Assembly (NCBI GenBank): GCA_902598655.1
Contig: CACKCQ010000003.1
Coordinates: 62,001-126,000, forward strand
Direction of reading: 5' to 3'
Origin: an uncultured Pelagibacteraceae bacterium
GTDB taxonomy: Bacteria; Pseudomonadota; Alphaproteobacteria; Pelagibacterales; Pelagibacteraceae
DNA: 64,000 bases
The notes below the pieces were generated by a model that saw only the letters and a list, made by a program, of their open reading frames with translations, had not been told where the DNA came from and searched no databases. Position numbers and translations under genes: made by a program. This document shows, in pieces, positions 2,091 through 62,577 of the stretch. Within the stretch, counting starts at the first letter, position 1. Every line of letters begins with the position of its first letter.

Positions 2091-2981
2091 TTAGTTAGCA
2101 GGTAATAGATTTTTTGATTTAGCAGAATTCAACATATGTTTTTGCAGTTTTTCAAATGCTTTATTTTCAATTTGTCTTATTCTTTCCCTACTTATTTTGA
2201 ATTTTTTACTTAAATCTTCTAAAGTTATTGGATCATCTGTTAATCTTCTTGAGTAAAGAATTTCTTTTTCTCTTTCATTTAAAATTTTAATAGAATTTTG
2301 AAGAAGTTCTTTTCGTTGTTCCATTTCTTCACTTTGGGCAAACTTCAATTCTTGATCCATATCATTATCAACGACCCAATCTTGCCATTCATCGCCGTCT
2401 TCACCAATTGGTGCATTTAATGACTGCTCTTTTCCTGAAAGCCTTCTATTCATAGATACTACTTCTTGTTCACTGACATCTAATCTATTTGCTATATCTT
2501 TTACGTGTTCATCGCGTAAGTCACCCTCAGTTCTAGGTGCAATTTGATTTTTTAGTTTCTTTAAGTTGAAAAAAAGCTTTTTCTGAGCTGTTGTAGTTCC
2601 AATTTTTACTAAACTCCACGATCTTAGAATATATTCTTGTATGGAAGCTTTAATCCACCACATTGCATAAGTGGCAAGTCTGAAACCTTTTTCTGGTTCA
2701 AATTTTTTAACAGCTTGCATTAAACCTACGTTACCTTCTGAAATCATTTCATTAAGAGGCAAACCATAACCTTTGTAACCCATTGCTATTTTAGCAACTA
2801 GTCTTAAATGACTTGTAACAAGTTTTTCAGCTGATTTAACGTTTCCTGTCGTTTGCCAGTTTTTAGCAAGCATGTATTCTTCCTCTGCATCTAGCATAGG
2901 AAATTTTTTAATTTGAGCTAGATATGCTGCTAAACCACCTTCATTAGAAAGAGCAGGCAAATTGTATGTGTTATTACTCAT
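2091..2981 (-). CDS. rpoH: RNA polymerase sigma-32 (heat shock) factor
   Basis: Sigma70-family regions 2 and 4 plus RpoH-box-like QKKLFFNLKKLK. Confidence 0.95.
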   Translation of the reverse strand: MSNNTYNLPALSNEGGLAAYLAQIKKFPMLDAEEEYMLAKNWQTTGNVKSAEKLVTSHLRLVAKIAMGYKGYGLPLNEMISEGNVGLMQAVKKFEPEKGFRLATYAMWWIKASIQEYILRSWSLVKIGTTTAQKKLFFNLKKLKNQIAPRTEGDLRDEHVKDIANRLDVSEQEVVSMNRRLSGKEQSLNAPIGEDGDEWQDWVVDNDMDQELKFAQSEEMEQRKELLQNSIKILNEREKEILYSRRLTDDPITLEDLSKKFKISRERIRQIENKAFEKLQKHMLNSAKSKNLLPAN

Positions 2982-37994: not shown

Positions 37995-40097
37995 TTGAAT
38001 TCTTTACATTGTGCTCAATCAAGATTAATTTTAATTGTGAAATCTTTTGTCTCAAAATATTATAATTATCTAATATATATTTTGATATTATTACTTTTAA
38101 TATCTTTAAAAATTAGCAATCCAACTATTGTTAAATCTGTTTCATTTTTGAGCTTTGACTTATACCAGAAAATATTTCCCTTAAGAAAACAAAACTCTGA
38201 TGTTATTATTGTAGATATAGATGAGAAAAGTTTACTTAAATTTGGACAATTCCCATGGAATAGATCTGTGTTTGCAAAAATACTGAGCAACATAAATGAA
38301 GCTGAACCAAAAGTAATTGGATTTGATGTTTTTTTTAGCGAGAAAGATAAACAATCACCGGAGGAATTTATTAAAGCTTATGATCTAAAATCTTTAGATC
38401 TAATTAATGAATTGAAAAATATAGAGAGTCACGATGAATACTTTACAAAAGAACTAGGAAATTCTAAAGCTGTTCTTGCAGTACTTGGAAGCACTGAAAA
38501 GTCTTTTAAAAAGTATAGTCGTAAACCTAAAGCAAGATTTTTATTTAAAGGAGGAGATCCAAATCAATTTGTTTATAATTATCCAAATTCTATTGGTTCC
38601 CTAGAATTACTTGAAAATAATGTGAAAGGATTAGGTTCAATTTCATTTTTGGACCAAACTGATGGGATTATAAGATCTTTACCGTTAATTGTTTCATTTG
38701 ATAAAAAAATTTACCCAACAATAGGTCTTGAGATGATCAGAGTTGGCTCAAAACAAAAAAATTTATTTGTAAATTTAGATGAAGTAGGAATTAAAAAAAT
38801 AAGCGTTAGACCACATAAAATTCCAACTGATAATAATGGATTACTTTGGATAAGATATAAATCACCACAAGAGAGTCAGTATATTTCTGCAAGTTCTGTT
38901 TTTGAAGGAAATTTTGATAGATCTAGATTTGAAAATAAATATGTTTTAATAGGCGCTTCTTCTCAAGGACTTTTTGATTTAGTTAAAACACCATTAGGTA
39001 TAATAATGCCAGGAGTTGAGGTCCACGCTAATGTAATTGAAAATATATTAGACAAATCGTATTTACTTAGAAATCCAGAAATTTATTTAATAGAACTTTT
39101 ATTAACTATTATTTTAGCGACAATAATATTTATTTTATCCCAAAAAATTAGACCAAAATATAGTTTGCCTGTTTTTATTTTAGGTTTTTTTTCAATTTTT
39201 ATAACAGGCTTTGCTTTTTATTATTTTAGGGCAGAATTGATCGATATTAGTTACCCTATATTTATTTTACTCGTAACGTTTTTAACTGGTCTTTATTTTA
39301 GATTTATACAAGAGAATAAATTTGCACTAGAAAATTTAAAGAAAGAGACAAAATTATTAAGAGAAAGAGAGTTAGCTGGAGATGTACAAAAAAGTTTATT
39401 CCCAGAAATCTCTAAATATCATAATTTTCTTTATGCTAAAAACATTCCAGCAAGAGATGTTTCTGGTGATTATTATGATTTAATAAATGTTGGTAAAAAC
39501 GAGTATTATTTTTCTTTAGCAGATGTATCAGGAAAGGGAGTGAAGGCTGGGATGTATATGGCAAAAGCATCATCTACATTTAGAGCATTATCTAAATTAT
39601 CAATACCACTAGAGAAAGTTGTTTATTTAGTAAATAATGAATTAGTTGAAGCTAAATTTAAAGGAATGTTTGTAACAGCTGTTTTTGGAAAATTTAACAC
39701 TGAAACTGGAGATGTCACATTTGTAAATGCCGGTCATGAAAGTATTATGTTATTTGATAAAAGTTTAAATTTCGAATTTTTAAAATCTGAATTACCGCCT
39801 ATAGGGATAGTTAAATATTTTACAGAAAGCATGGTAGTGTCAAAAACTATAAATCTAAAAGATAAAACTTTTGTAGTTTATACAGATGGTGTTACAGAGG
39901 GATATTTAGAAAATGGAAAGGAATTGGGAGCAGAAGGTGTAGAAGAGATAATCAAAAATTTAAATGAAGTAAATCCTTCAAGTATCGTTGAAGGAATTGC
40001 ATCTAAATTAAATTGGGGTTCAGATAAATTGAGAGATGATATTACCTGTTTAGCTTTAAATTTAGAAAATACCGAATTATTAAAAACAAAAAAATGA
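37995..40097 (+). CDS. CHASE2 sensor - TM - SpoIIE/PP2C-type serine phosphatase (TTG start in ORF track)
   Basis: Extracytoplasmic CHASE2-like region (VIIVDIDEKSLLKFGQFPWNRSVFAKIL ... GVEVHANVIENIL), three TMs, linker helix, PP2C domain with VSGDYYD, ADVSGKG, NAGHE, TDGVTEG, DDITCLAL. Confidence 0.88.
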   Translation: MNSLHCAQSRLILIVKSFVSKYYNYLIYILILLLLISLKISNPTIVKSVSFLSFDLYQKIFPLRKQNSDVIIVDIDEKSLLKFGQFPWNRSVFAKILSNINEAEPKVIGFDVFFSEKDKQSPEEFIKAYDLKSLDLINELKNIESHDEYFTKELGNSKAVLAVLGSTEKSFKKYSRKPKARFLFKGGDPNQFVYNYPNSIGSLELLENNVKGLGSISFLDQTDGIIRSLPLIVSFDKKIYPTIGLEMIRVGSKQKNLFVNLDEVGIKKISVRPHKIPTDNNGLLWIRYKSPQESQYISASSVFEGNFDRSRFENKYVLIGASSQGLFDLVKTPLGIIMPGVEVHANVIENILDKSYLLRNPEIYLIELLLTIILATIIFILSQKIRPKYSLPVFILGFFSIFITGFAFYYFRAELIDISYPIFILLVTFLTGLYFRFIQENKFALENLKKETKLLRERELAGDVQKSLFPEISKYHNFLYAKNIPARDVSGDYYDLINVGKNEYYFSLADVSGKGVKAGMYMAKASSTFRALSKLSIPLEKVVYLVNNELVEAKFKGMFVTAVFGKFNTETGDVTFVNAGHESIMLFDKSLNFEFLKSELPPIGIVKYFTESMVVSKTINLKDKTFVVYTDGVTEGYLENGKELGAEGVEEIIKNLNEVNPSSIVEGIASKLNWGSDKLRDDITCLALNLENTELLKTKK

Positions 40098-41413
40098 AAA
40101 AAATATCATTTATATTAACTTTAATTTTATTTTTTCAAACAAGCTTAAAAGCCAAAGAAATAACCTATCAAGAAATTTTAGAAAATCCTACAGATTTAGA
40201 ATTAAACTTAAATTATGCCAAGCAACAAGAAAATACTGGCAACCTTAAATTAACCATATCAACATTGGAACGTTTAAACATGTTATATCCAAAAAATTTA
40301 GATATTAAACTTTATCTTCTATCAATATTAATTGAAATGGATTCTAAAGTTAAAGTAGATCTAATGGTTAGAACTATGATGAATGATCCCAATACCCCTG
40401 CTGAAACAAAAAAAACTATTGCAAAATTATTAACTAGTCCATCCAAGGAAAAAGAAAGTAAATGGTTTGCTTATCTAGATTTAAAATACTTACAAACAGA
40501 AGAAAACAACGTAAGTGGTATCACTAAATCAAAAAAATTATTACAAGAAGATAACTTAATACCATACCCTGCTGTTGATGGAAGGTTGGTTGTAGAAGAT
40601 GATAAGACTTTTAACAGAACTGGTGCATTAACGATTGGTAGAAATCTTAATAATAGTTCATCTGTTTTTTTTAATATAAGTTTAGATGTTAAAACTATCG
40701 AAAAAAAAGTTACTGGAGACAGTGATATAATTTCTTCATCATTGAGTTACTTTAAAATATTCGGAAATAATTATATTTCGCCATATGCATACTGGAGCAA
40801 ACCTAATTACAGAAGACAAGAAGATTATGAATCAAAAGGTTATGGATTTAACAATACTTATTTTTTTAATGAGAAGCACAACATCAATTATGGTCTAGCT
40901 TTTTCTGAAACCTCATACGACAGGAGCTCAGCATTTACAGCCGCAGATGATAATGATAGTGATGTGTATTCTAGTTTTATTAAGCACAATTTTAATTTTA
41001 CAAAAAAAAGTCAACTTGGAACTAAAATAATCTTGAACAGAACAGAAGCTAAGAAAGAATTTGATAGCTATGATTCTACGGGAATTAACCTAACTTATTC
41101 TCATTTCTTACCCATAGGAACATTAAAATTAAGCAGCACATATTTAAAAAATGCATATGATGAACCTGAAACCTTTCTTAGTGTGAGTAAAATTAGAGAC
41201 GACGAAAGTTTTGTTAATTCTATTTCATTGGAGGGCCAAATTATTCAACTCTTACCATTTATTAAGAATTCAAAATTTTCAGAAGGAGTATTTTACACTT
41301 TAAAATTAAGACAGTCTGATGTAAGTTCAAATATACAAAATCACGATGTAGAAAGAAAGTTTTTTACAATGGGATTAACTAAAAGATTTAATTTAAATGC
41401 GCTATTTAAGTAA
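40094..41413 (+). CDS. TPR plus outer-membrane beta-barrel protein (Slam/DUF560-like architecture)
   Basis: Signal peptide, N-terminal helical-repeat region, then ~270 aa of alternating amphipathic beta strands ending KRFNLNALFK; 4-bp overlap with CHASE2 gene. Confidence 0.6.
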   Translation: MKKISFILTLILFFQTSLKAKEITYQEILENPTDLELNLNYAKQQENTGNLKLTISTLERLNMLYPKNLDIKLYLLSILIEMDSKVKVDLMVRTMMNDPNTPAETKKTIAKLLTSPSKEKESKWFAYLDLKYLQTEENNVSGITKSKKLLQEDNLIPYPAVDGRLVVEDDKTFNRTGALTIGRNLNNSSSVFFNISLDVKTIEKKVTGDSDIISSSLSYFKIFGNNYISPYAYWSKPNYRRQEDYESKGYGFNNTYFFNEKHNINYGLAFSETSYDRSSAFTAADDNDSDVYSSFIKHNFNFTKKSQLGTKIILNRTEAKKEFDSYDSTGINLTYSHFLPIGTLKLSSTYLKNAYDEPETFLSVSKIRDDESFVNSISLEGQIIQLLPFIKNSKFSEGVFYTLKLRQSDVSSNIQNHDVERKFFTMGLTKRFNLNALFK

Positions 41414-41972
41414 AGTATTAATAATTATTTTTTTGACATTTGCTAGTGTAGCCAAAGCAAGCAACAATAGTTTTGTAGGTGTAATTGGAGCTGCAATTGG
41501 AGATATAAAAAATCAAAAAAACGAGAGCCTCTCAAATGGCTCAAAAATTTTTTTTGGAGATACTATTATATCAAAAAGTAAATCAAATGCTCAAATATTA
41601 TTTCTTGATCAAACTGTATTAACTTTAGGTGAGGAAACAGAACTTACTATTGACGAATTTGTTTATGATCCAAATAGTCAAGACGGTTCTTTTGTTTCAA
41701 CTGTAAAAACAGGAACAGTTAAGTTCATTACTGGTCAGATAAGTAAAAAAAATCCTGATAATCTTGAGGTAAAAGTTCCAGCTGGTACTTTAGGAGCACG
41801 TGGTACAGAATTTGTTGTATTGTCAGAATCCAATAATGAAAGCACTGTTGTTTTATTAGGACCAGGTCCTAATAACACTTTAGGAATGATACCAGGAAAT
41901 TTAATATTATCTGATGGAGTAAATTCAGTTGATATAACAAATCCAGGATTTGAAGCGATGGTAAAAAATTAA
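41397..41972 (+). CDS. secreted FecR-domain protein
   Basis: Signal peptide; FecR-like GDTIISKSKSNAQILFLDQTVLTLGEETELTIDEF...VKTGTVKFITGQ...VKVPAGTLGARGTEFVV. Confidence 0.82.
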   Translation: MRYLSKVLIIIFLTFASVAKASNNSFVGVIGAAIGDIKNQKNESLSNGSKIFFGDTIISKSKSNAQILFLDQTVLTLGEETELTIDEFVYDPNSQDGSFVSTVKTGTVKFITGQISKKNPDNLEVKVPAGTLGARGTEFVVLSESNNESTVVLLGPGPNNTLGMIPGNLILSDGVNSVDITNPGFEAMVKN

Positions 41973-41975
41973 ATT

Positions 41976-43010
41976 ATGAAAATTTTATTTATAATAAAAT
42001 CGATTATTATTTATATAATCTTCAATTCCTATTCGTATGCCGTTGTATCAACTCCAACTCCAACGACAACTTTAAGTAAAATAGCAAATTCCATGAGTTA
42101 TTCAGCAAATAATACATCACAAAATGTTACAAGTAATACTAGTAGTACTACATCAAAATTAATAAATTCATCAAAATTAACTGCCGGCATTCAAAAGTCA
42201 GCTGAAAAATTTGGATTGACTATAGATGCTGATGCTGCAGCTATTGTTGCTAGCATCGATACTTCAAGTGTTGAGTCTATGTCAAAAGCACTTGCATCAT
42301 TAGAGGGTAATTATGCTCATTTGGATGATGACTATGTTCAAACAATTGATCAAGATACAATTATTTATGACAGTGACTGGGTAACATTAAGTAAAGTTAC
42401 TGGTGGATCCTTAAATTACACAAGCAATAACAATGTATTTAAATCAGGTGCATCTCAACAGGTTAGAGCTCAGGTATATGTTAATTTTAAAAAAAGAGAT
42501 ATTTTTGCCGATGTGGATACTAAAATCACAAGAGCTGTTGGAGCAGGAGGAAATTGGGATTCTACTGGGGGCACAGAAATTGCAACAAGTTGGAGAACAG
42601 GTACAGCAGCATTTACTGACCTACCTATAGTAGCAACTGATGACCAAAGAATAGGTGACGGCTGGGGATCATACGCTGCGGTATTTGCAGGAGAACATGA
42701 CAAATTTAGCACGATGAAGAAAAGTACTACAACTCTTCAAGATGCCTGCACACACTGTGATGCTGGAAGTTATTGGACTGTTAAGCAAAACCATATTGAA
42801 GAGTACAACAACAATGTAAATGACGCCAGTTCATATGGCTCTATATATTTTTATGGAAAGTTTACTACAGCATCAGAAGGTGCAGAAGGTGTTGGAAATT
42901 TTGCATTTGAAGGTGGCTTCACAGCTGACGGTGCTTCAGAACAAGAATTTGTAGAGTCTATTGAAAGATATGAAGCTACCGGTACACTCTCAGCAAAAGC
43001 TGCAGAATAA
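41976..43010 (+). CDS. secreted protein of unknown function
   Basis: Signal peptide, Ser/Thr-rich N-terminus, CTHC pair, beta-rich Gly-rich C-terminus; 4 bp after the fecR-like gene. Confidence 0.7.
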   Translation: MKILFIIKSIIIYIIFNSYSYAVVSTPTPTTTLSKIANSMSYSANNTSQNVTSNTSSTTSKLINSSKLTAGIQKSAEKFGLTIDADAAAIVASIDTSSVESMSKALASLEGNYAHLDDDYVQTIDQDTIIYDSDWVTLSKVTGGSLNYTSNNNVFKSGASQQVRAQVYVNFKKRDIFADVDTKITRAVGAGGNWDSTGGTEIATSWRTGTAAFTDLPIVATDDQRIGDGWGSYAAVFAGEHDKFSTMKKSTTTLQDACTHCDAGSYWTVKQNHIEEYNNNVNDASSYGSIYFYGKFTTASEGAEGVGNFAFEGGFTADGASEQEFVESIERYEATGTLSAKAAE

Positions 43011-43017
43011 TATTAAA

Positions 43018-44307
43018 CTATTTTCCATCGATCACTACAATTGTTAGATCATCTTTTTGAATATGACCTGCATTAAGAATATCATCTATCATAGTCTTCA
43101 ATCTTTCATTAATAGGAGTTAATTGATATTTTTTTATGTAGTTTTCAAAGCCTTCAGATCCTAACATTTCGCCACTTGGATTTTTAATTTCTGTAATACC
43201 ATCAGTAAAAATATACATCGAACTGTTCTCAAATGACAATTTGTGTTCAGGATATTTTGTTTTAGGCATAACTCCTAAAGGAGGACCAGCTTCTGAAAAA
43301 TTACTAAATTTACCATCTGCAGATAAAATTAAAGGTGGTTCGTGTCCTGCACTTGAAAGAAGCAATTCTTTTTTGTTTGAATCATATATTCCAATTAGCA
43401 TCGTAACAAACATACCTCTTGAAATTGTCTCACATATCTCGTTATTTAATTGAAATAATAATTCTGATGCGGAAAAATTTGTTTTACTTAAACATCTATA
43501 CAGACTTGATGCTTTTGACATTAAAAGAGAAGATTTTATACCTTTCCCAGATACATCTGCCACACCAAATCCATATTTACCATCGCCCAAATCTGAAAAA
43601 TTATAAAAATCTCCAGAGACAACTTTTGCTGGAATATTTATTCCCGCAACTGGAAAGTTTTCATCTTTATTTTTGGACAATAGTGATTTTTGAATTTCCC
43701 CTACAATTTCTACTTCCTTTTGAATTTTATTTTTTTCTATCATTTCTTTTGCCATTTTTGCATTTCTAATAGCTAGTGCTGCTGGAGCTGATAGTGTTTC
43801 TAGTAATTTTCTATCATCCTCAATAAATAATTTGTCATTTGTTTTTTTGTTCAAGCAGTGAATTACACCTATACATTCATTAGCAGCAATTAATGGAGAG
43901 CATAGAACAGAGTATGTGTTAAAATTAGTTTTGTTATCTAAATCAAAATAAAACTCAGCTATTTCCCTTACATCTTTCCTTACATTACCGACACGAATAC
44001 ATTTTTTTTGTTCTACTGCTTTACCCATTACACCATCTTTTAAATCTAACTCATATTCATCAAGATAATTTTGATGAAGTGATGCAATACATTCAAACTT
44101 CTTCTTTTTTTCATTTATAAGAAAAATATTTGCGGCTTCAGCATTTAATCTAGCAATGATAACTTGTAGAGCTGTTTTAAGAGTATCATTTAAATCAAGA
44201 GAGACAGCAAATTCTTGATTCATTTTTGTAACAAGTTCTAAATCTTCATTTACTTGTGAAGCTTGTTTTTCTGGCTCAATAGGTTTTTTTGTTTTAAAAA
44301 GAAACAT
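43018..44307 (-). CDS. GAF domain - SpoIIE/PP2C-type serine phosphatase
   Basis: GAF-like N-terminal half; PP2C motifs VSGDFYNF, ADVSGKGIKSSLLMSKASSLYRCLSK, SAGHEPP, FTDGITE, DDLTIVVI. Confidence 0.88.
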   Translation of the reverse strand: MFLFKTKKPIEPEKQASQVNEDLELVTKMNQEFAVSLDLNDTLKTALQVIIARLNAEAANIFLINEKKKKFECIASLHQNYLDEYELDLKDGVMGKAVEQKKCIRVGNVRKDVREIAEFYFDLDNKTNFNTYSVLCSPLIAANECIGVIHCLNKKTNDKLFIEDDRKLLETLSAPAALAIRNAKMAKEMIEKNKIQKEVEIVGEIQKSLLSKNKDENFPVAGINIPAKVVSGDFYNFSDLGDGKYGFGVADVSGKGIKSSLLMSKASSLYRCLSKTNFSASELLFQLNNEICETISRGMFVTMLIGIYDSNKKELLLSSAGHEPPLILSADGKFSNFSEAGPPLGVMPKTKYPEHKLSFENSSMYIFTDGITEIKNPSGEMLGSEGFENYIKKYQLTPINERLKTMIDDILNAGHIQKDDLTIVVIDGK

Positions 44308-44475: not shown

Positions 44476-45234
44476 GTGGATATAATCTTTTTTATTGTCA
44501 TAGGAGGTTTATGGGGCAGTTTTGCCAACGTCTGCATATACAGATTACCAATTAACAAAAATATAGCACTTGGTAGATCGTATTGTACAAATTGTAAAAA
44601 AAAAATATCTTGGTTTGATAATATTCCAGTTTTATCTTATTTAATATTAAGATCTAAATGTAGAAATTGTAGAAAAAAAATTTCTTTTCAATATTTTCTT
44701 GTTGAACTTCTTAGCATATTAAATTTCACAGTAATCTATTTATTATTTGGTATTACTTTGACAACTATACTGCTTATAATTTTAAGCTTAGCATTTCTAA
44801 TAATATTCTTTATAGATTTGAAACATTATATAATACCAAATTCCATAACTTATCCTATGATGATTTTAGGTTTTATTAAATCGTTTGATCCAAATTTAAA
44901 TTCCATCTTTCCAAATTATATTAATTCATTGATAGGAGGAATTTTCGGATATGCAATGATTTGGTCAATTATTTATTTTTATAAACAAATAAAAAAGAAA
45001 GATGGTATGGGATTAGGTGATGCAAAACTTTTTGCAGTTATAGGTTTTTGGTTTGGGTGGATTTCAATTCCATTTATAATCTTTCTCTCTTCAATTATTG
45101 CTCTTATTTATGTGTTACCAGACTTGCTTAAAAATTCAAAAAAAATGTCATCGCAAATACCTTTTGGTCCATTTATAATTATAGGGACAATTTTTTATTT
45201 GGTATTTCAAGACTATTTTGTACAATTGATATAA
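44476..45234 (+). CDS. pilD: prepilin leader peptidase/N-methyltransferase
   Basis: Two CxxC pairs (YCTNCKKKISW...CRNCRKKISFQY); GMGLGDAKL catalytic motif; GTG start. Confidence 0.93.
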   Translation: MDIIFFIVIGGLWGSFANVCIYRLPINKNIALGRSYCTNCKKKISWFDNIPVLSYLILRSKCRNCRKKISFQYFLVELLSILNFTVIYLLFGITLTTILLIILSLAFLIIFFIDLKHYIIPNSITYPMMILGFIKSFDPNLNSIFPNYINSLIGGIFGYAMIWSIIYFYKQIKKKDGMGLGDAKLFAVIGFWFGWISIPFIIFLSSIIALIYVLPDLLKNSKKMSSQIPFGPFIIIGTIFYLVFQDYFVQLI

Positions 45235-45249
45235 ATTAAAATATTAGCC

Positions 45250-46131
45250 ATGTTTGAAAATGTAATCACAAATACTTCAAAAATAATAATTGGTAATACG
45301 GATAGAATTAAACTTGCGTTGGCTGCAATAATTTCCGAGGGAAGTATATTAATTGAAGATTATCCAGGTTCAGGCAAAACAACATTTGCAAAAGCACTTA
45401 CATTAAATTTAGGATTAAATTTTAAAAGAATTCAGTTCACATCTGATTTATTACCAAGTGATATATTAGGATTTAATGTTTTATCCAATGACAAAATAAA
45501 TTTTCAGCAAGGACCAATATTTACAAATATCGTTTTAGCAGATGAACTTAATAGAGGCAGTCCAAAATCACAAAGTGCTTTTCTGGAAGCCATGGAAGAA
45601 AAAAAAGTTTCTATAGATGGCGAAAGTCATTCCTTACCTGAGCCATTTTTTGTAATCGCAACGCAGAATCCTATGGACACTTCAGGAACAAGTTTATTAC
45701 CAGATTCGCAACTAGATCGATTTATGATTTCTTACTCCTTATCTGAATTGAGCGAGAATGATAAAATAAATATGCTAAAACAGGATGTTGAGTTGACCAA
45801 TGGAAAAACAAGTCATTTAGATTGGGACGAGATCAAAATAAAAAAAAATAAAATTACAGTTAAAGAAGAAATTTATAAATACGTATTAGAGATTGAGCAG
45901 ATTATAAAAACACTAGAGCAAAAAATTTATCTTTCTGCAAGATGTATGAAGCAAATTATAAATCTAGCTAAAGGATGGGCTATTATTAATGGAAAAGATT
46001 ATGTCACACATCAAGATATAAAAGATACATTGCCTTTTATATTGAGGCACAGAATAAGATTTCTAAATCAAGAGGATAAATTCGAATTTGTTAATAAAGA
46101 AATACTTGAAAAAATTAGCATAATTGGATGA
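45250..46131 (+). CDS. MoxR-family AAA+ ATPase
   Basis: EDYPGSGKTTFAKAL; ADELNRGSPKSQSAFLEAMEEKKVSIDG; FFVIATQNP. Confidence 0.94.
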   Translation: MFENVITNTSKIIIGNTDRIKLALAAIISEGSILIEDYPGSGKTTFAKALTLNLGLNFKRIQFTSDLLPSDILGFNVLSNDKINFQQGPIFTNIVLADELNRGSPKSQSAFLEAMEEKKVSIDGESHSLPEPFFVIATQNPMDTSGTSLLPDSQLDRFMISYSLSELSENDKINMLKQDVELTNGKTSHLDWDEIKIKKNKITVKEEIYKYVLEIEQIIKTLEQKIYLSARCMKQIINLAKGWAIINGKDYVTHQDIKDTLPFILRHRIRFLNQEDKFEFVNKEILEKISIIG

Positions 46132-47036
46132 AAATACAAAGTATTCAAAGAATTTCTAACTTTTTTGAATTTAATTTAAAAAATAAAACAAAAATTTATA
46201 TTTATCCAAACCTCAATGGTATTGGGCTTGGGCTGTTTATTTTCTTTTGTTTTCTAATATCAGTATTTTATGAAAATAATTCTGCATTATTGATATCAAT
46301 AATCATATTCTTTATTTTTTTTATCTCGATTTTTGTATCTCATCAGAATATTAATAGTTTAAATCTAAATCATAACCAAAATTTTGTTATTGAAGCTGGA
46401 AAATCTGAAATAATAAATTTACAAATTATTAATCTGTCTAACGAAAAAAAATTAAATATTGATGTTGATTATAACAAACAGACTATAGGCAACTACAATT
46501 TTAATAAAAAAGTTAATACTGTCCGTCTAAAATATTTCAATAAACAAAGAGGAAAATATTGTCTAGATAAAATAATACTTAAATCAATTTATCCTTTTGG
46601 TGTTATTAGAACAAAAGTTCCACTTATATCTAAATCAGAAATATATATTCACCCAACAAAAATTAGACCAAACGATAAAATATTAAATGAGTTCCAAATC
46701 AATAAACTAAAAAATGCAGATGAATTTGATGGGTTAGATGATTATAAATATGGTGATAGTTATTCCAAAATAGCTTGGAAAAAATCCTCAGGCAAGAATA
46801 AATATGTCAAAGTCTTCAGTGATGTTGAAAAGCAATCACATTTTATTTTAAACTTAAATAAATACGAAGAAATTAATTTTGAACTGTTATTAGGTTATGC
46901 TGTATATATTATACACTATTTTTTTGATAACAAAAAAAAACTTATCATAAAACATAGAAATAATGTATTTGAATTAAACAGTAGTCAAAATTCATTAAAT
47001 AAAATTCTTAAATATTTGTCAAATGTTGAAAAATAA
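46128..47036 (+). CDS. DUF58 domain protein
   Basis: Two N-terminal TMs; EFDGLDDYKYGDSYSKIAWKKSS motif; overlaps MoxR gene by 4 bp. Confidence 0.88.
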   Translation: MKIQSIQRISNFFEFNLKNKTKIYIYPNLNGIGLGLFIFFCFLISVFYENNSALLISIIIFFIFFISIFVSHQNINSLNLNHNQNFVIEAGKSEIINLQIINLSNEKKLNIDVDYNKQTIGNYNFNKKVNTVRLKYFNKQRGKYCLDKIILKSIYPFGVIRTKVPLISKSEIYIHPTKIRPNDKILNEFQINKLKNADEFDGLDDYKYGDSYSKIAWKKSSGKNKYVKVFSDVEKQSHFILNLNKYEEINFELLLGYAVYIIHYFFDNKKKLIIKHRNNVFELNSSQNSLNKILKYLSNVEK

Positions 47037-48918
47037 TTTTTTGAATATTTCATACTTAACATTTATTACTTTATTCATAAGTATCCTAAGTCTATCAAGT
47101 GACCTAATATTTAGTATTAAAATATTTTGGTTCATTTTATTTATAGTAAGTCTATTTCTATTAAAAATTAAATTAAAATTTAAAAGTTTATTAATTGGAG
47201 CTATTGCATTATCAGCGCTCTATATTCAATTAATTTTAAATCAGTATGTAATGTCAGAAGAATTTTTTATTAATTGTCTAGGAGTATTAATTATAATTAA
47301 ATTTTCAGAATTAAATGATAAAAATAATTTACTCTCTTTTAATCTAATTTGTATTGTGATTGCAATTGCTAGTTTAATTAAAGGACAAGACATTATTAGC
47401 ACACTAACATCTATAGCTTTAGTAATTTTGATTGTTGTTAATATGTATTTAATTCAGCAAAAAGAAATTTTAGATTTAAACTTAAAAAATATATTTAAAT
47501 ATTTAGGTTTTGGATTAAGTATTTTTCCTTTTATTATAATTTTTTATTTAATATTTCCCCGAGCAGAAATAAATTTTAAAATATTTGACCAATCTACAAG
47601 CTCTTTAGGTATTCCAGATACAATAAATCTTGGTTCTTTTAGTGAATTTTCAAACTCTGAAGAAGAAATATTTAAGTTGATTAATAATAATTATAAAAAA
47701 GAGGACTTATATTTTAGGGTAAAAGTATTTGATTTTATTGAGGATAACAAATCTTGGAGACCTTCGTCTGGATATTACTTATTTAACCAATTTAAAAATT
47801 CATTAAAAATTAACGATAAACAAAATCTAAATGAAAGTTATGAAATTATTTTAGAACCATATAAAAAGAAATGGATACCTAGTTTAAAAAATTCGAAAAT
47901 AGCATCAAACTTTACAGAAATTTCTGAAGATTACTTTAACCAAACATTTATAAGCAGAAACTTAATTGATAGAAATAAACAAGTAAGATTTGAAAAAATT
48001 AAAACAAATATTTCTTTAGGTGAAGATTTAAGAAATTACTATGTATCAACTCCAAAAAATATTTCATATAAGTTAAAGAAATGGGTTTCGGAAAATAATA
48101 ATTCAACCCAAATAGAGTTTCTTAATAAAATTTATAAAAGATTTTCCAAAGGCGATTATTATTATAATTTAAATCCTCAAAATATTATTGGTAATGATTA
48201 CGAAAGTTTTTTCTTTGATATCAAAGAAGGTTATTGCGAACATTATGCTGCAACGTTTGTATTACTTGCAAGATTAGCAAATATTCCAAGTAGAATTGTT
48301 ACTGGTTATTATGGAGGAGAATTAAATGATGTTGGTAATTTTTACAGCTTTAAACAAAAGGATACTCATGCCTGGGCTGAGATATGGCTTGAAGATAAAG
48401 GTTGGGTTAGAATTGATCCTACTAAAGCTATACCTGATGAAAATGTTAAAAATACACTAAATAATGTAATTAATTATGAAGATTTAAATTCAAAGAGTTT
48501 ATTTTCTTCAAAATATTTTCAAAGAATATCCTATTATTTTAGTTATGTTGATTTCATTTGGACTAAACATTTGCTGTCATATGATAACGAAGAAAGGAAA
48601 AATTTTATCAAAAATATATTAAATTTTAATTTTTCAAAAATATTTGTTTGGATCTTTGCTCCAATTATATTCTTTATTTTGATAAAAATAATTTTCTATA
48701 TTAATAGTAAGAACTTAATGAAATTATATTTATATTTGCTTCTAATAGGAAAAAAAAAAAAATTAGGAATATTAAAATCAGATACTTTAGAAGAAACTTT
48801 TAATAAATTTAATGAAAACGAAAAAATTAAATATAGACAATTTTTTCAAGCTTACGAAATTAACAAATATTCTAGAAAAAATTTTAGTATTATTGAAACT
48901 TTAAGATTAATTTTCTAA
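47023..48918 (+). CDS. TgpA-like membrane transglutaminase
   Basis: Multi-TM N-terminus, transglutaminase core GYCEHYAATFVLLARLANIPSRIVTGYYGG...DTHAWAEIWLEDKGWVRIDPT, C-terminal TM. Confidence 0.92.
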   Translation: MLKNNFLNISYLTFITLFISILSLSSDLIFSIKIFWFILFIVSLFLLKIKLKFKSLLIGAIALSALYIQLILNQYVMSEEFFINCLGVLIIIKFSELNDKNNLLSFNLICIVIAIASLIKGQDIISTLTSIALVILIVVNMYLIQQKEILDLNLKNIFKYLGFGLSIFPFIIIFYLIFPRAEINFKIFDQSTSSLGIPDTINLGSFSEFSNSEEEIFKLINNNYKKEDLYFRVKVFDFIEDNKSWRPSSGYYLFNQFKNSLKINDKQNLNESYEIILEPYKKKWIPSLKNSKIASNFTEISEDYFNQTFISRNLIDRNKQVRFEKIKTNISLGEDLRNYYVSTPKNISYKLKKWVSENNNSTQIEFLNKIYKRFSKGDYYYNLNPQNIIGNDYESFFFDIKEGYCEHYAATFVLLARLANIPSRIVTGYYGGELNDVGNFYSFKQKDTHAWAEIWLEDKGWVRIDPTKAIPDENVKNTLNNVINYEDLNSKSLFSSKYFQRISYYFSYVDFIWTKHLLSYDNEERKNFIKNILNFNFSKIFVWIFAPIIFFILIKIIFYINSKNLMKLYLYLLLIGKKKKLGILKSDTLEETFNKFNENEKIKYRQFFQAYEINKYSRKNFSIIETLRLIF

Positions 48919-58456: not shown

Positions 58457-59111
58457 TTCCACTAAATCTGTATTTTTGTATTTGTCCAAATCTGCTCCAT
58501 TCTATCAAATAAGCTGGTTTCTTTAAACCATCCTTTTCTTTTAATGGACACTTTCCACCTTTGGTTTGAGCAAGGTCAGAGCTGCAAACAATTATAAATC
58601 TTTTATGTTCGTTTTTTTCAAAAATCAAATTTCCCTGAGATAAACCACCACTTGTTGAATAATGTGCAGCGTTTTTAGAAAAACAAACTGAGCTTGTTTT
58701 GTCAAGTTGAGTTGCGACACCTTTAACAGTGACCTTTTGAATTTCTGGATTACCTCCTAAATTTGATTTCCAATCATCTTTATTTGTGCTGCATGTTATT
58801 TGAGTGTTTTGAGAATTTCTTTTTTTTAATAATCTTGTGTACCCTTTTCTTTGTAAACCTCTTGTATGAATTTCAATTTTGTCTTTCCGAGGGGTAACCA
58901 TTAATTGTACAAAAGAATAATTTCCTCTTTGAACTGCTGATGTAATAGTAGAGAGCATTGTTGAAACTTGTTCAGCGCTTTTTCTAACTTCTCTATCTTT
59001 ACTCCAAGAACTAAAATTAGGATAAGCAACTGCAGAAATTACCATTACAATTGTAACAACAACTAATAATTCTAATAATGTAAATCCTTTAATGTTCTGA
59101 TCTTGCTGCAC
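58437..59111 (-). CDS. fimT: FimT/GspH-like minor pilin
   Basis: G-FTLLELLVVVTIVMVISAVAYPNF prepilin signature. Confidence 0.82.
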   Translation of the reverse strand: MQQDQNIKGFTLLELLVVVTIVMVISAVAYPNFSSWSKDREVRKSAEQVSTMLSTITSAVQRGNYSFVQLMVTPRKDKIEIHTRGLQRKGYTRLLKKRNSQNTQITCSTNKDDWKSNLGGNPEIQKVTVKGVATQLDKTSSVCFSKNAAHYSTSGGLSQGNLIFEKNEHKRFIIVCSSDLAQTKGGKCPLKEKDGLKKPAYLIEWSRFGQIQKYRFSGNDWIRQ

Positions 59112-60105
59112 CTGGATCTATCTTTCCTGATTTAGCCAATTCCTCAAGAGACTTTTCCATAGTTATCATACCATCTCTGACTGCAGTCTGCATGATGCTT
59201 GGTATTTGGTGTATTTTTGCTTCTCTAATTAAATTTTGAATTGGTGCTGTGCATTTCATAATTTCAAAGGCACCAACCCTTCCTGCTCCATCTCTTGTTT
59301 TTAATAGTCTTTGTGTAACTACCATTTTTAATGAAGTCGATATTTGCGCTCTAATTTGTTCTTGTTGCTCTGGAGGAAAAACATCTATTATACGATTGAT
59401 TGTACTAGGAGCACCACTTGTATGCAATGTTCCAAAAACTAAGTGACCTGTTTCAGCAGCAGTTAAAGCTAAACTAATTGTCTCAAGATCTCTCATTTCA
59501 CCAACTAATATTACATCAGGATCTTCTCTTAAAGCTGCCTTCAATGCAGCAGCAAATGTTTCAGTTTGTTTCCCAACTTCTCGATGTGAAATTATACTTC
59601 TATTATCTTCATGTATAAATTCTACTGGGTCCTCAACTGTTATTATGTTTGCAGTTCTTGTTTTATTAATTTCATTTACAATAGCTGCAAGGGTTGTTGA
59701 TTTACCAGATCCTGTTGGACCTGTAACTAAAACTAAACCCTTATGAAAATCCACGATATCATAAAGTGCCTGTGGTAAATTAAATTGATCCATATCTGGA
59801 ATTTTACTTTCCACTCTTCTGCAAACACAAGCCGGTCCCTTAATGGTTTTATAAAAATTAGCTCTAAATCTTAATCCACTTAAAGTAACCGATGTATCGA
59901 GTTCGTGTGTCGTATTAAATTTTTCTAGTTCTTGTTCACTACAGTTCATTGACAACAAATCTTTTAAATCTTGAGCCGTTACCATTACCTCTTGAACTTT
60001 AATGATCTCTCCTGTTTGTCGATATGCCAGTGGAGCACCTGATCTTATGTGAAAGTCAGATATTTTTTTATTGTTCTTGGCTAATTCTTCTAATTTTTCA
60101 AACAT
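59089..60105 (-). CDS. pilT: type IV pilus retraction ATPase
   Basis: GPTGSGKSTTLAAIV; ALREDPDVILVGEMRDLETISLALTAAETGHLVFGTLHT. Confidence 0.95.
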   Translation of the reverse strand: MFEKLEELAKNNKKISDFHIRSGAPLAYRQTGEIIKVQEVMVTAQDLKDLLSMNCSEQELEKFNTTHELDTSVTLSGLRFRANFYKTIKGPACVCRRVESKIPDMDQFNLPQALYDIVDFHKGLVLVTGPTGSGKSTTLAAIVNEINKTRTANIITVEDPVEFIHEDNRSIISHREVGKQTETFAAALKAALREDPDVILVGEMRDLETISLALTAAETGHLVFGTLHTSGAPSTINRIIDVFPPEQQEQIRAQISTSLKMVVTQRLLKTRDGAGRVGAFEIMKCTAPIQNLIREAKIHQIPSIMQTAVRDGMITMEKSLEELAKSGKIDPGAARSEH

Positions 60106-60226: not shown

Positions 60227-61939
60227 ATGAAAAATCCATTTGCGAACCTAAAGCTATTTAAGAAAAAAGATAAAGATCAATCAGGCTCACCTGTCCCAAA
60301 ATCTGATAAACCAAAGAAAGATAACTTTTTCAGCAAGCTTTTAAAAAATCGGATTGGTAAAGCTTCTGTTCAGGGAGAGGAAATTTTAGGAGTTGAACTC
60401 ACAACAAATGAAATAAGACTAGCACAAGTCTCAAGTAATAAGTCTAATCAATGGGTTTTAGATAAATTTTTTGTTCATAAGTTTGAAGGTATAGATGATA
60501 ATGGAACAGTTCTAGAAAACCAGGATAAAATTGCAGATGAGCTAAAGCTAGCAATACAAACATCAAAAGTTTCTACAACTAACGCAGCGATAGCTATTCC
60601 AGTAACAAGTGCGATTATAAGAGTGGTCACTGCTCCTTTAATGACAGACGAGGAGCTAAAGAAAGCTATTGATACAGATTCATTATGGGAAAACCTTGTA
60701 CAGCTCACAGATAATTTAAACGATTATTCAATTTTTCATCAAGTTATAAATAAAGATGAAAAAGGTAACACAATGGATATTTTATTTGTTGCTTCAAAGT
60801 TATCAGATATTAACAGTTATACAGCAATTATTAAAAAGGCAGGACTTAATGCGGTAATAATTGATGTAAAATGTTTTGCATTAAAGTCTGCTGTTGACCA
60901 AATAAATCAAATTGCAGGGTCTATTGAAGATTCTAATCTAACAGCTGTTCTAGAATTTGGTTTGGATGAAAATTATGTAATGATACTTTATGAAAATAAT
61001 CCAATCATAACAGATATATTTATAAGATCGCAAGATCGAAAAACACTCCAAGAAAGTAATAATCAAGAAGAGATGGATGCTTTGGTTAGAAGATATATGA
61101 CTCAAGTTAAGCAGGCTGTTCAAGATTTTGAAACGAAATATGAAAAAAGAATTAGAAATTTAAAAGTTACTTCTAATTTAGAAAATGTTGATGATTATTT
61201 AGCAAGTTTTAGAAAAAATATGGTTAATACGGGTTATAATCTCTTTAATCCATTTGAGGGGATTAAAGTTCCAGCACAATTAGAAAACGATGTTCAATTT
61301 ACCAATCCTTCTTATTTCTCTACTGTAATGGGTTTAGCATTTAGAAAACTTGACGTTTTTGGTTATTACAAATTTGTAACAGCAGTAAAAAATATTAACC
61401 TTTTACCCAATAGAGACAACATGATAGCTCAAAAAAAAGCTAAGGCTTTTTCAAATTTTGCATTTAAAGGTGTTGTAGGTGTTGTTGCAGTTATTTATGT
61501 AATTTTATTTGGTTTTTCATTTTGGCAAATAATGGATTTAAACAAAAAAATTCAAGGTTACGAACAAGTTGTTCAAGTTCATCAGGAAAGAACAGAGTTA
61601 AGAGATAAATTTTTAAAAGAAAAAAGAATGATGGATAAATCATTAGAATTAAGTAATTCCATCAAGTCAAACAAAACCGTCAGCTTCAGAGTTCTTGCTC
61701 AAATAGCATCAGCTGTACCAAATAGAGTAAAATTTAGCTCTATTGAGTACAACGGGTCAGATTTAATAACTATACAAGGTACAGCCTTTAGCGATCAAGA
61801 TATTCTAAAATTGATAAGTAATTTAAATAACAAGAAATTAATTGCACAAGCATCTTTAGCAAGCATGATTCTACCTGAACAAAAAGATAGTCAGAGTAGA
61901 AAAGGTTTTGTAATAGCTTGTGTGTTGGAGGCTGTGTAA
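60227..61939 (+). CDS. PilM-PilN fusion protein
   Basis: Actin-like PilM region (GVELTTNEIRLAQVS) continuous with PilN hallmark NINLLPNRDN (61391-61420), TM and PilN-like periplasmic domain; 570 aa, one frame. Confidence 0.85.
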   Translation: MKNPFANLKLFKKKDKDQSGSPVPKSDKPKKDNFFSKLLKNRIGKASVQGEEILGVELTTNEIRLAQVSSNKSNQWVLDKFFVHKFEGIDDNGTVLENQDKIADELKLAIQTSKVSTTNAAIAIPVTSAIIRVVTAPLMTDEELKKAIDTDSLWENLVQLTDNLNDYSIFHQVINKDEKGNTMDILFVASKLSDINSYTAIIKKAGLNAVIIDVKCFALKSAVDQINQIAGSIEDSNLTAVLEFGLDENYVMILYENNPIITDIFIRSQDRKTLQESNNQEEMDALVRRYMTQVKQAVQDFETKYEKRIRNLKVTSNLENVDDYLASFRKNMVNTGYNLFNPFEGIKVPAQLENDVQFTNPSYFSTVMGLAFRKLDVFGYYKFVTAVKNINLLPNRDNMIAQKKAKAFSNFAFKGVVGVVAVIYVILFGFSFWQIMDLNKKIQGYEQVVQVHQERTELRDKFLKEKRMMDKSLELSNSIKSNKTVSFRVLAQIASAVPNRVKFSSIEYNGSDLITIQGTAFSDQDILKLISNLNNKKLIAQASLASMILPEQKDSQSRKGFVIACVLEAV

Positions 61940-62577
61940 TGGATCTTAAAAATATTACAATGACAGATCTAAAAGAGAAATTAGCAACGATTGATAAAAA
62001 AATATTAATAAAGTTTGGAGCAGGTTTTGGTGCAATACTTTTATTTTTAATTGTTTATTACGCAGTTTTAAACCCAATGGTTAAAGAACGTAAACTAAAG
62101 TATAATGATAAAATAACAAAGCAAAATGAAATTGTAGAATTAGAGGATAATATTATTACTTTAAAAAATACAATTGAAAAAAATAAACCACAATTCGAAA
62201 AAACTTCCACTCTATTTCATACAAAAGCAGAAGTTGAAGGTCTTTATGAAAGTCTAAGTTTGCATGCTGCGAAAAATGGACTTGTAATATCTAAGATAGA
62301 AAAAAAAGAACCAAAGCCTGTTTTAAAACCTGGAGAAGCTGCACAGTCTGCTGAACTGCTAGAGCAAAGTGCAATTTCGTATTATCAAATACCGGTTGAT
62401 TATGAAATTAAAGGGAATTTCTTGGGGTATATAAAGTTTAAAAGAGCAGTATCTAAACAAAAAAAAATGTTAAATTTTGACAAAGAGACGATAAGTATAG
62501 TACAAAACGATTCAACCGGAGCGATTGTTGCCAGAGGAGAATTAACAATAGTAGGAATGCCTGATGAGTTTTTTTAA
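61939..62577 (+). CDS. pilO: type IV pilus assembly protein PilO
   Basis: Single TM, coiled coil, PilO position; ATG at 61939 overlaps the pilMN stop (TAATG). Confidence 0.85.
   Translation: MDLKNITMTDLKEKLATIDKKILIKFGAGFGAILLFLIVYYAVLNPMVKERKLKYNDKITKQNEIVELEDNIITLKNTIEKNKPQFEKTSTLFHTKAEVEGLYESLSLHAAKNGLVISKIEKKEPKPVLKPGEAAQSAELLEQSAISYYQIPVDYEIKGNFLGYIKFKRAVSKQKKMLNFDKETISIVQNDSTGAIVARGELTIVGMPDEFF

Follow-up and report, generated by a model that had tools for sequence, protein, structure and literature searches.

A CHASE2-SpoIIE, TPR-barrel and FecR gene cluster as a probable envelope input to a partner-switching system of the SAR11 type IV pilus

SAR11 bacteria, whose cells rank with the most numerous on Earth, possess very few regulators. 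The genome considered here belongs to this group (Pelagibacteraceae) and, at 1.09 Mb, is streamlined, as the original prediction had supposed. The window, i.e., the whole stretch of 64,000 nucleotides that was analysed, carries a compact set of sensor, surface and phosphatase genes as follows:

37995..40097, + strand: CHASE2-SpoIIE (PP2C) membrane phosphatase (Pfam CHASE2, 1.4e-53; SpoIIE, 1.3e-32)
40094..41413, + strand: outer-membrane 14-strand barrel with N-terminal TPR helices, of porin/BcsC/Slam-like architecture (AlphaFold, Foldseek; TPR_19/OMP_b-brl in relatives)
41397..41972, + strand: secreted FecR-domain protein of 191 aa (Pfam FecR, 2.8e-11; hydrophobic N-terminal signal segment)
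41976..43010, + strand: secreted orphan, homologous to the C-terminal part of a FecR protein that is fused in relatives
43018..44307, - strand: GAF-SpoIIE cytosolic phosphatase, a second input, beside pilD in many SAR11 genomes (Pfam SpoIIE, 5.7e-42; GAF_2, 6.6e-12)

ORF positions and Pfam matches bore out the five genes and the tight spacing first described for them: the barrel gene shares 4 bp with the CHASE2 gene and 17 bp with the FecR gene, while 3 bp separate the FecR gene from the orphan and 7 bp separate the end of the orphan from the stop of the convergent GAF-SpoIIE gene. The CHASE2-SpoIIE protein comprises one N-terminal TM segment, a CHASE2 domain outside the cytoplasm, a C-terminal TM cluster, a coiled linker and the SpoIIE phosphatase, in which the metal-binding Asp motifs are all present (SGDYY 490, ADVSGKG 509, TDG 630 and DDIT 681). 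Its start is probably GTG 38037, not TTG 37995, because relatives begin there.

The original prediction had staked itself on conservation of the gene set in relatives, and such conservation was found. Across dozens of SAR11 genomes, the barrel and FecR genes are kept with CHASE2-SpoIIE in 38 of the 41 loci having at least 4.5 kb of upstream DNA, so the gene set is not a product of chance, and a pilus gene is present at all 41 of these loci. The order that recurs in dozens of SAR11 single-cell genomes is pilB-pilC-rsbW-STAS-pilA-pilA-[Amt-SpoIIE]-barrel-FecR-CHASE2-SpoIIE. The window cluster probably provides one of the inputs to a larger system, the core of which sits just past the window end: the only RsbW-type kinase of the genome (C3:129577-129909) and its only STAS protein (C3:129969-130253) are encoded there, with pilC on one side and the pilin genes on the other. 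Near rsbW and STAS, likewise outside the window, lies a SpoIIE domain fused to an ammonium transporter (Amt-SpoIIE); the genome has three SpoIIE genes only, all on this contig.

We observed that the parts of this core are intact. The SpoIIE/PP2C metal-binding Asp motifs are preserved in all three SpoIIE genes of the genome (Pfam SpoIIE, 1e-32 to 6e-42), and the catalytic Asp motifs are kept in all complete SpoIIE proteins inspected. Some relatives seemed to lack one SpoIIE motif; this was a search-pattern artefact, as GDV(T/S)GKG retains the Asp. The phosphorylatable Ser of the DSSG motif is found in 65/65 STAS proteins, and the RsbW kinases carry the N-box (47/48) and GGLG (48/48). The closest solved structures are SpoIIAA/RsbV for STAS and RsbW for the kinase; for the phosphatase, SpoIIE is one of several matches. 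With STAS and RsbW both present and intact, partner switching proved to be the right framework, as had been proposed.

The GAF-SpoIIE gene, originally taken for a flanking part of the cluster, is instead conserved on its own next to the gene for the prepilin peptidase, and it also occurs in genomes that lack the CHASE2 cluster (e.g., that of probable HTCC1062). This peptidase gene and further pilus genes of the window are:

44476..45234, + strand: PilD, the prepilin peptidase, oriented divergently to GAF-SpoIIE (Pfam Peptidase_A24, 5.3e-23; A24_N_bact, 1e-31)
59089..60105, - strand: PilT retraction ATPase of a type IVa pilus (NCBIfam TIGR01420 pilT_fam, 414 bits, over cut-off)
60227..61939, + strand: PilM-PilN fused pilus assembly protein (Pfam PilM_2, 2.6e-18; PilN, 2.9e-10)
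61918..62577, + strand: PilO-like pilus assembly protein (Pfam PilO, 9e-4, below cut-off; position right)

The genome thus encodes a type IVa pilus, with PilB, PilC, PilT, PilM/N/O, pilins and PilD. In three complete genomes, CHASE2-SpoIIE is the sole phosphatase, indicating that it alone can serve the switch.

SAR11 keeps or loses this phosphorylation switch (i.e., one kinase, one STAS and several sensor-phosphatases) together with type IV pili. More specifically, SpoIIE, RsbW and PilC (T2SSF) had the same distribution over 30 Pelagibacteraceae genomes (29 of them at least 97% complete): the same 21 have all three and the same 9 have none, a match with a chance probability of 7e-8 when kinship is ignored. 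On a tree of one gene (MrdA), presence changed about nine times, with eight of the changes forced by well-supported branches, and SpoIIE, RsbW and T2SSF agreed at every tip. Likewise, PilC and RsbW coincided among 37 genomes of the same genus (16/16 and 0/21; one RsbW was truncated at a contig edge). Genetic linkage accounts for some of the joint loss, and phosphatase genes located 190-585 kb from rsbW are likewise absent whenever the pilus is absent. Three sister-family genomes (G042, G045 and G051) have T2SSF and lack a kinase-sized RsbW, so a pilus can work without RsbW. Type IV pili, which SAR11 lineages have repeatedly lost or gained, may matter for the uptake of DNA, for attachment and for infection by phages.

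Taken directly, then, all parts are present, their motifs are intact, and the genes are linked to the pilus and gained and lost with it. On this basis, the window cluster probably feeds signals from the envelope into a partner-switching system by which SAR11 controls its type IV pilus. The outer-membrane TPR-barrel and the secreted FecR protein would inform the CHASE2 domain about conditions at the surface or in the periplasm. Judging from domain order and the intact catalytic residues, CHASE2 would in turn gate, through the membrane, the SpoIIE phosphatase in the cytosol. By homology to RsbU/SpoIIE, the single RsbW kinase is predicted to phosphorylate the single STAS on the Ser of its DSSG motif, and CHASE2-SpoIIE, GAF-SpoIIE and Amt-SpoIIE are all predicted to remove that phosphate. 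Unphosphorylated STAS may then bind RsbW, thereby releasing or redirecting it, or may itself be the output, and pilus assembly, retraction or pilin expression would be altered.

An envelope role for the FecR, CHASE2 and barrel genes, as first suggested, is plausible. A CHASE2 receptor gene stands beside a secreted FecR gene, which is the arrangement of a CHASE2-FecR sensor pair. Fec-type cell-surface signalling was rejected, given that no ECF sigma factor was found in the genome and that there is no TonB receptor; the FecR protein here is secreted, and neither Pfam nor the fold makes the barrel a TonB receptor. The orphan, initially regarded as an independent gene family, is instead a detached C-terminal domain of the FecR protein: residues 183-511 of the FecR protein in L121 align with it (35% identity, E=3e-44), and the two are fused in the relatives L121/L124. 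AlphaFold modelling of the fused protein gave a pLDDT of 46, and we therefore claim no fold for the orphan.

The barrel model (pLDDT 83.6) shows N-terminal helices followed by approximately 14 long strands, as read from the element list. This is the topology of Slam-type exporters, and the secretion or display role once suggested for the barrel would make it such an exporter, with the FecR protein and orphan as surface-displayed cargo and CHASE2-SpoIIE only monitoring export. Cargo-like secreted genes do adjoin the barrel gene, and the SlipAM (PF04575) profile matches 1 of 26 barrel family members (5e-6), leaving that role weakly supported. However, the window barrel itself has no SlipAM match, its Foldseek matches favour porins (OmpG, CymA) and BcsC, and neither the FecR protein nor the orphan has a lipobox Cys after the signal segment, i.e., no neighbouring lipoprotein substrate for Slam is apparent in the sequence. 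We regard this exporter role as quite unlikely; it is compatible with the pilus partner-switch explanation. A profile search found TPR_19 in 16/26 and OMP_b-brl in 9/26 members of the barrel family, and a match to DUF2860 (23 bits) was too weak to use.

As to the output, a sigma-70 region 2 search found RpoD and RpoH only and no dedicated or ECF sigma factor in a genome that is 86.6% complete, so that a sigma gene could still be missing from the assembly. The cognate alternative sigma factor that serves as target in classical Rsb systems was not found in the genome, and one gene of the window is a candidate for that place:

2091..2981, - strand: RpoH sigma-32, candidate (unproven) RsbW target (NCBIfam rpoH_proteo, 356 bits; sigma-70 region 2 search)

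A sigma-70 promoter scan of the region (41 hits versus 39 expected) was dropped. RsbW might be an anti-sigma factor for RpoH (or RpoD), with the phosphatases releasing RpoH to elicit a general stress response in which the pilus genes are just one of several targets. Binding to sigma factors is the classical behaviour of RsbW-type kinases, no alternative sigma factor other than RpoH was found in the genome, and HsbR of P. aeruginosa binds RpoS (PMC6482189). We nonetheless consider RpoH an unlikely target, as loss of the switch exactly when the pilus is lost would be odd for a general stress regulator, and two-hybrid analysis in R. capsulatus gave no contact of RbaW with RpoD or RpoHI (PMC3999984).

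As a rule, phosphatases of the SpoIIE type act specifically on STAS proteins. In 2025, a phosphoproteomic study of HTCC1062 reported that Ser/Thr phosphorylation is dynamic, that RsbW is the only kinase of this type and that no protein phosphatase is annotated (PMC13198564). Four SpoIIE domains are encoded in what is probably the genome of that strain, and the SpoIIE domains described here, hidden inside "ammonium transporter" and CHASE2 genes, are candidates for the phosphatases said to be missing. The same report would suit SpoIIE domains that act as general Ser/Thr phosphatases on the wide SAR11 phosphoproteome, not on one STAS. This appears very unlikely in view of the STAS specificity of the family, the strict joint occurrence with RsbW and the pilus, and the nine near-complete genomes that have neither SpoIIE nor RsbW.

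Extending the pilus partner-switch reading, we tentatively propose, at somewhat less than an even chance, that many signals converge on the single Ser/Thr kinase RsbW as their hub. Ammonium through Amt-SpoIIE, the envelope through CHASE2/FecR/barrel and a cytosolic ligand through GAF-SpoIIE would determine whether one STAS is phosphorylated, and this STAS would act on the pilus machine itself and not on a sigma factor; the SpoIIE domains would then be the phosphatases reported missing. Nutrient sensing, ammonium in particular, would thereby be tied to type IV pili, and both cultured SAR11 model strains appear to carry versions of the system.

Both the pairing of CHASE2 with FecR and partner switching linked to pili have precedents elsewhere; the literature searched contained neither their combination nor the Amt-phosphatase nor the SAR11 setting. 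The BiofilmReg operon of Burkholderia likewise has a CHASE2-histidine kinase gene beside a secreted LysM-FecR gene (PMC5192318), but its output is a histidine kinase with a response regulator, and it has neither barrel nor SpoIIE. As the original prediction had suspected, CHASE2-FecR neighbourhoods with cyclases are known: many CHASE2-nucleotide cyclases (Bradyrhizobium, Labrenzia and others) lie downstream of a FecR gene, and their CHASE2 region is ~30-35% identical to that of the window, whereas their output is a cyclase and, in one examined, FecR is fused to cadherin-like and RTX-type domains. RsbU/RsbV/RsbW and SpoIIE/SpoIIAA/SpoIIAB of Bacillus share the SpoIIE phosphatase, the STAS protein with phospho-Ser and the GHKL Ser kinase; in SAR11, by contrast, no dedicated sigma factor was found, up to four sensor-phosphatases would feed one kinase, and the genes lie within a type IV pilus locus. 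SiaABC(D) of Pseudomonas aeruginosa also combines a PP2C phosphatase, a kinase and a STAS-like protein in a partner switch for surface lifestyle (PMC7647112), but works with a diguanylate cyclase, a threonine phosphosite and another sensor. HmpUVW of Nostoc punctiforme, from another phylum, is needed for type IV pilus-driven motility, with STAS reported as the output and the effector undefined; the accessible part of that report mentions no CHASE2, FecR or Amt inputs (PMC6495340). RbaVWY of Rhodobacter capsulatus is an alphaproteobacterial STAS/RsbW/PP2C system with no identified sigma factor and a dominant STAS (PMC3999984), although its phosphatase has a receiver domain and it controls the gene transfer agent and viability. 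The SAR11 switch is Rsb-like without a classical sigma target, as RbaVW and HmpVW are reported to be.

Whole-genome searches of the uncultured Pelagibacteraceae (SAR11) genome that contains the window (G000; 1.09 Mb, 86.6% complete) identified only three SpoIIE phosphatase genes, all on the window's contig (C3, CACKCQ010000003.1, on which the window spans C3:62001-126000), together with one STAS protein and one HATPase_c_2/RsbW-type kinase above the cut-off. The STAS/RsbW pair lies ~3.5 kb beyond the window end and is followed by two pilin-like genes and then by Amt-SpoIIE. Pilus genes are also present inside the window, namely, PilD (prepilin peptidase) beside the GAF-SpoIIE gene, and PilT, PilM-PilN, and PilO near the window end. 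The loci concerned are as follows.

Window 37995-44307: CHASE2-SpoIIE, TPR-barrel, FecR, and orphan secreted protein genes (plus strand), and convergent GAF-SpoIIE (minus strand)
Window 45250-48918, directly after pilD: MoxR ATPase, a gene without Pfam match (DUF58-like by position), and a TgpA-type transglutaminase gene
C3:129.5-130.3 kb, minus strand: STAS and RsbW genes (4-bp overlap), between pilC and the pilin genes
C3:131665-133812 (L040:5665-7812), outside the window: Amt-SpoIIE, 715 aa; ammonium transporter domain (1e-110) and SpoIIE (2e-35)

The DSSG phosphorylation motif is kept in 65/65 STAS proteins, the N-box in 47 of 48 RsbW proteins, and the SpoIIE catalytic motifs in every complete sequence inspected. 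Among solved structures, STAS is nearest to SpoIIAA/RsbV and the kinase to B. subtilis RsbW. The MoxR-to-TgpA gene run after pilD is kept in some relatives (L057, L061, L173), and several genomes carry a second, related Amt-SpoIIE copy (L058, L059, L171, L174).

We assessed co-occurrence with the pilus in 30 Pelagibacteraceae genomes, i.e., 29 with completeness of 97% or more and the genome of the window itself (86.6%), taking RsbW as present at E ≤ 1e-10. SpoIIE, RsbW, and T2SSF (the PilC domain) each occurred in the same 21 genomes and were missing from the same 9. On an MrdA single-gene tree, this distribution needs nine presence changes, eight of them forced by well-supported branches (e.g., G086 versus G084, G064 versus G065, and G088 versus G087); since the three agree at every tip, they were gained or lost together on about nine separate occasions. 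Joint loss is not explained by physical linkage alone, because phosphatases located far from rsbW (193, 211, 409, and 585 kb in some cases) are also missing from all pilus-less genomes, none of the nine having kept a SpoIIE gene. Likewise, among 37 same-genus genomes of mixed completeness, 16 have both PilC and RsbW and 21 have neither; the RsbW of G003, which lies next to PilC, is cut short by the end of its contig and scores below the cut-off. Three sister-family genomes carry T2SSF without a kinase-sized RsbW, which counts against a strict need of RsbW for the pilus. CHASE2-SpoIIE is the only phosphatase in three complete genomes.

All five genes that the original prediction had placed in the window cluster were found there with the predicted spacing, and Pfam bore out the CHASE2 plus SpoIIE, FecR, and GAF plus SpoIIE assignments. 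In public genomes, the nearest relatives come from single-cell genomes of Pelagibacteraceae, with up to 86% identity across the CHASE2 part. CHASE2-SpoIIE comprises an N-terminal transmembrane segment, a large extracytoplasmic part, a C-terminal transmembrane cluster at residues 360-439, and an intact phosphatase; a sequence search of its CHASE2 region against solved chains returned no match. In the barrel model (pLDDT 83.6), helices lie within residues 1-115 and are followed by about 14 long strands; Foldseek matches it to BcsC, a TPR-barrel protein, and to porins, including OmpG and CymA. Over its full length, the orphan (41976-43010) shares 35% identity with the C-terminal portion of the FecR protein at locus L121 (511 aa), where the two are fused as one gene; the orphan is therefore the split-off second half of the FecR protein.

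The gene set itself, proposed as a dedicated system, proved to be conserved in a neighborhood search for CHASE2, FecR, and barrel. Of the SAR11 loci, 41 extend 4.5 kb or more upstream of CHASE2-SpoIIE; all 41 contain a pilus gene, and 38 contain both barrel and FecR. Dozens of SAR11 single-cell genomes share the order pilB, pilC, (reverse) rsbW, STAS, pilA1, pilA2, Amt-SpoIIE, barrel, FecR, CHASE2-SpoIIE, in which Amt-SpoIIE is optional and STAS is sometimes doubled. In the window and in L061, the genes are arranged differently, as RodA, CHASE2-SpoIIE, barrel, FecR, and orphan, followed by GAF-SpoIIE and PilD. In a further group of loci, PilD and CHASE2-SpoIIE share a 4-bp overlap, with barrel and FecR next in several cases. 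The CHASE2-SpoIIE of the window shares 66-70% identity with the pilin-linked type; the window's barrel is 50-52% identical to the PilD-linked type versus about 27% to the pilin-linked type, and its FecR 68% versus about 42%, respectively. At L063:7267-16080, a single CHASE2-SpoIIE stands between two different barrel-FecR pairs, with two orphan copies; this locus has the appearance of an intermediate in recombination between the two types, in which sensor partners are being swapped. FecR proteins of pilin-linked loci end in a long lysine-rich tail (L041:7101-8441, L062:8370-9950) that possibly binds polyanions, e.g., DNA or LPS. At L040:15040-16642, a secreted orphan gene comes after an inverse-autotransporter beta-domain gene, and this pair recurs near the pilus/CHASE2 locus of other SAR11 genomes (L048, L065, L071, L116).

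Homology and the genes present point to partner switching in SAR11, in which the sensor-phosphatases would act on phosphorylated STAS, RsbW would rephosphorylate it, and the STAS state would decide the output. Three predicted inputs are evident from the domains: the envelope (CHASE2 with FecR and barrel), a cytosolic ligand (GAF), and ammonium (Amt). Other SAR11 genomes have additional phosphatases of this kind: a 288-aa SpoIIE close to pilin-like genes (L190) and, in another genus, a receiver-SpoIIE whose gene has pilin-like genes on either side (L181:9044-10660; L182 from 6327, minus strand) and which could be a two-component input to the same switch. Position and joint loss tie the output to the pilus, and we infer a link of STAS/RsbW to pilus activity.

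Genome G066, presumably strain HTCC7211, holds the CHASE2-SpoIIE, barrel, FecR, and orphan plus GAF-SpoIIE set. In G086, which we take to be strain HTCC1062, rsbW lies near 67 kb, adjoining pilC, and the SpoIIE genes map to three loci, CHASE2-SpoIIE not being among them.

L171:8070-12561, L172:5116-6462, and L190:9827-10693: two Amt-SpoIIE, one GAF-SpoIIE, and one 288-aa SpoIIE protein, the last near pilin-like genes at L190

The probable HTCC1062 genome has four SpoIIE domains, although the 2025 phosphoproteome of this strain, which names RsbW (SAR11_0057) as the sole Ser/Thr kinase, reports no annotated phosphatase predicted to act on proteins (PMC13198564).

The sigma factors found in the genome were RpoD and RpoH only. 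No dedicated sigma factor has been identified for the comparable systems of Nostoc (PMC6495340), Rhodobacter (PMC3999984), and Pseudomonas (PMC7647112) either. In Nostoc, type IV pilus motility is known to need a partner switch. The open-licence literature searched contained no report from SAR11 in which CHASE2-FecR and a pilus-linked partner switch are combined with SpoIIE, a TPR-barrel, and a fusion of Amt to SpoIIE. At L128:5861-9853, outside SAR11, a CHASE2-cyclase has as its FecR partner a 1330-aa cadherin-like/RTX-type protein, which suggests that surface adhesins may be what such CHASE2-FecR pairs monitor. Adjacent CHASE2 and FecR have been described with a histidine kinase as the output (PMC5192318), and our analysis also found them with a cyclase as the output, in Bradyrhizobium, Labrenzia, and others.
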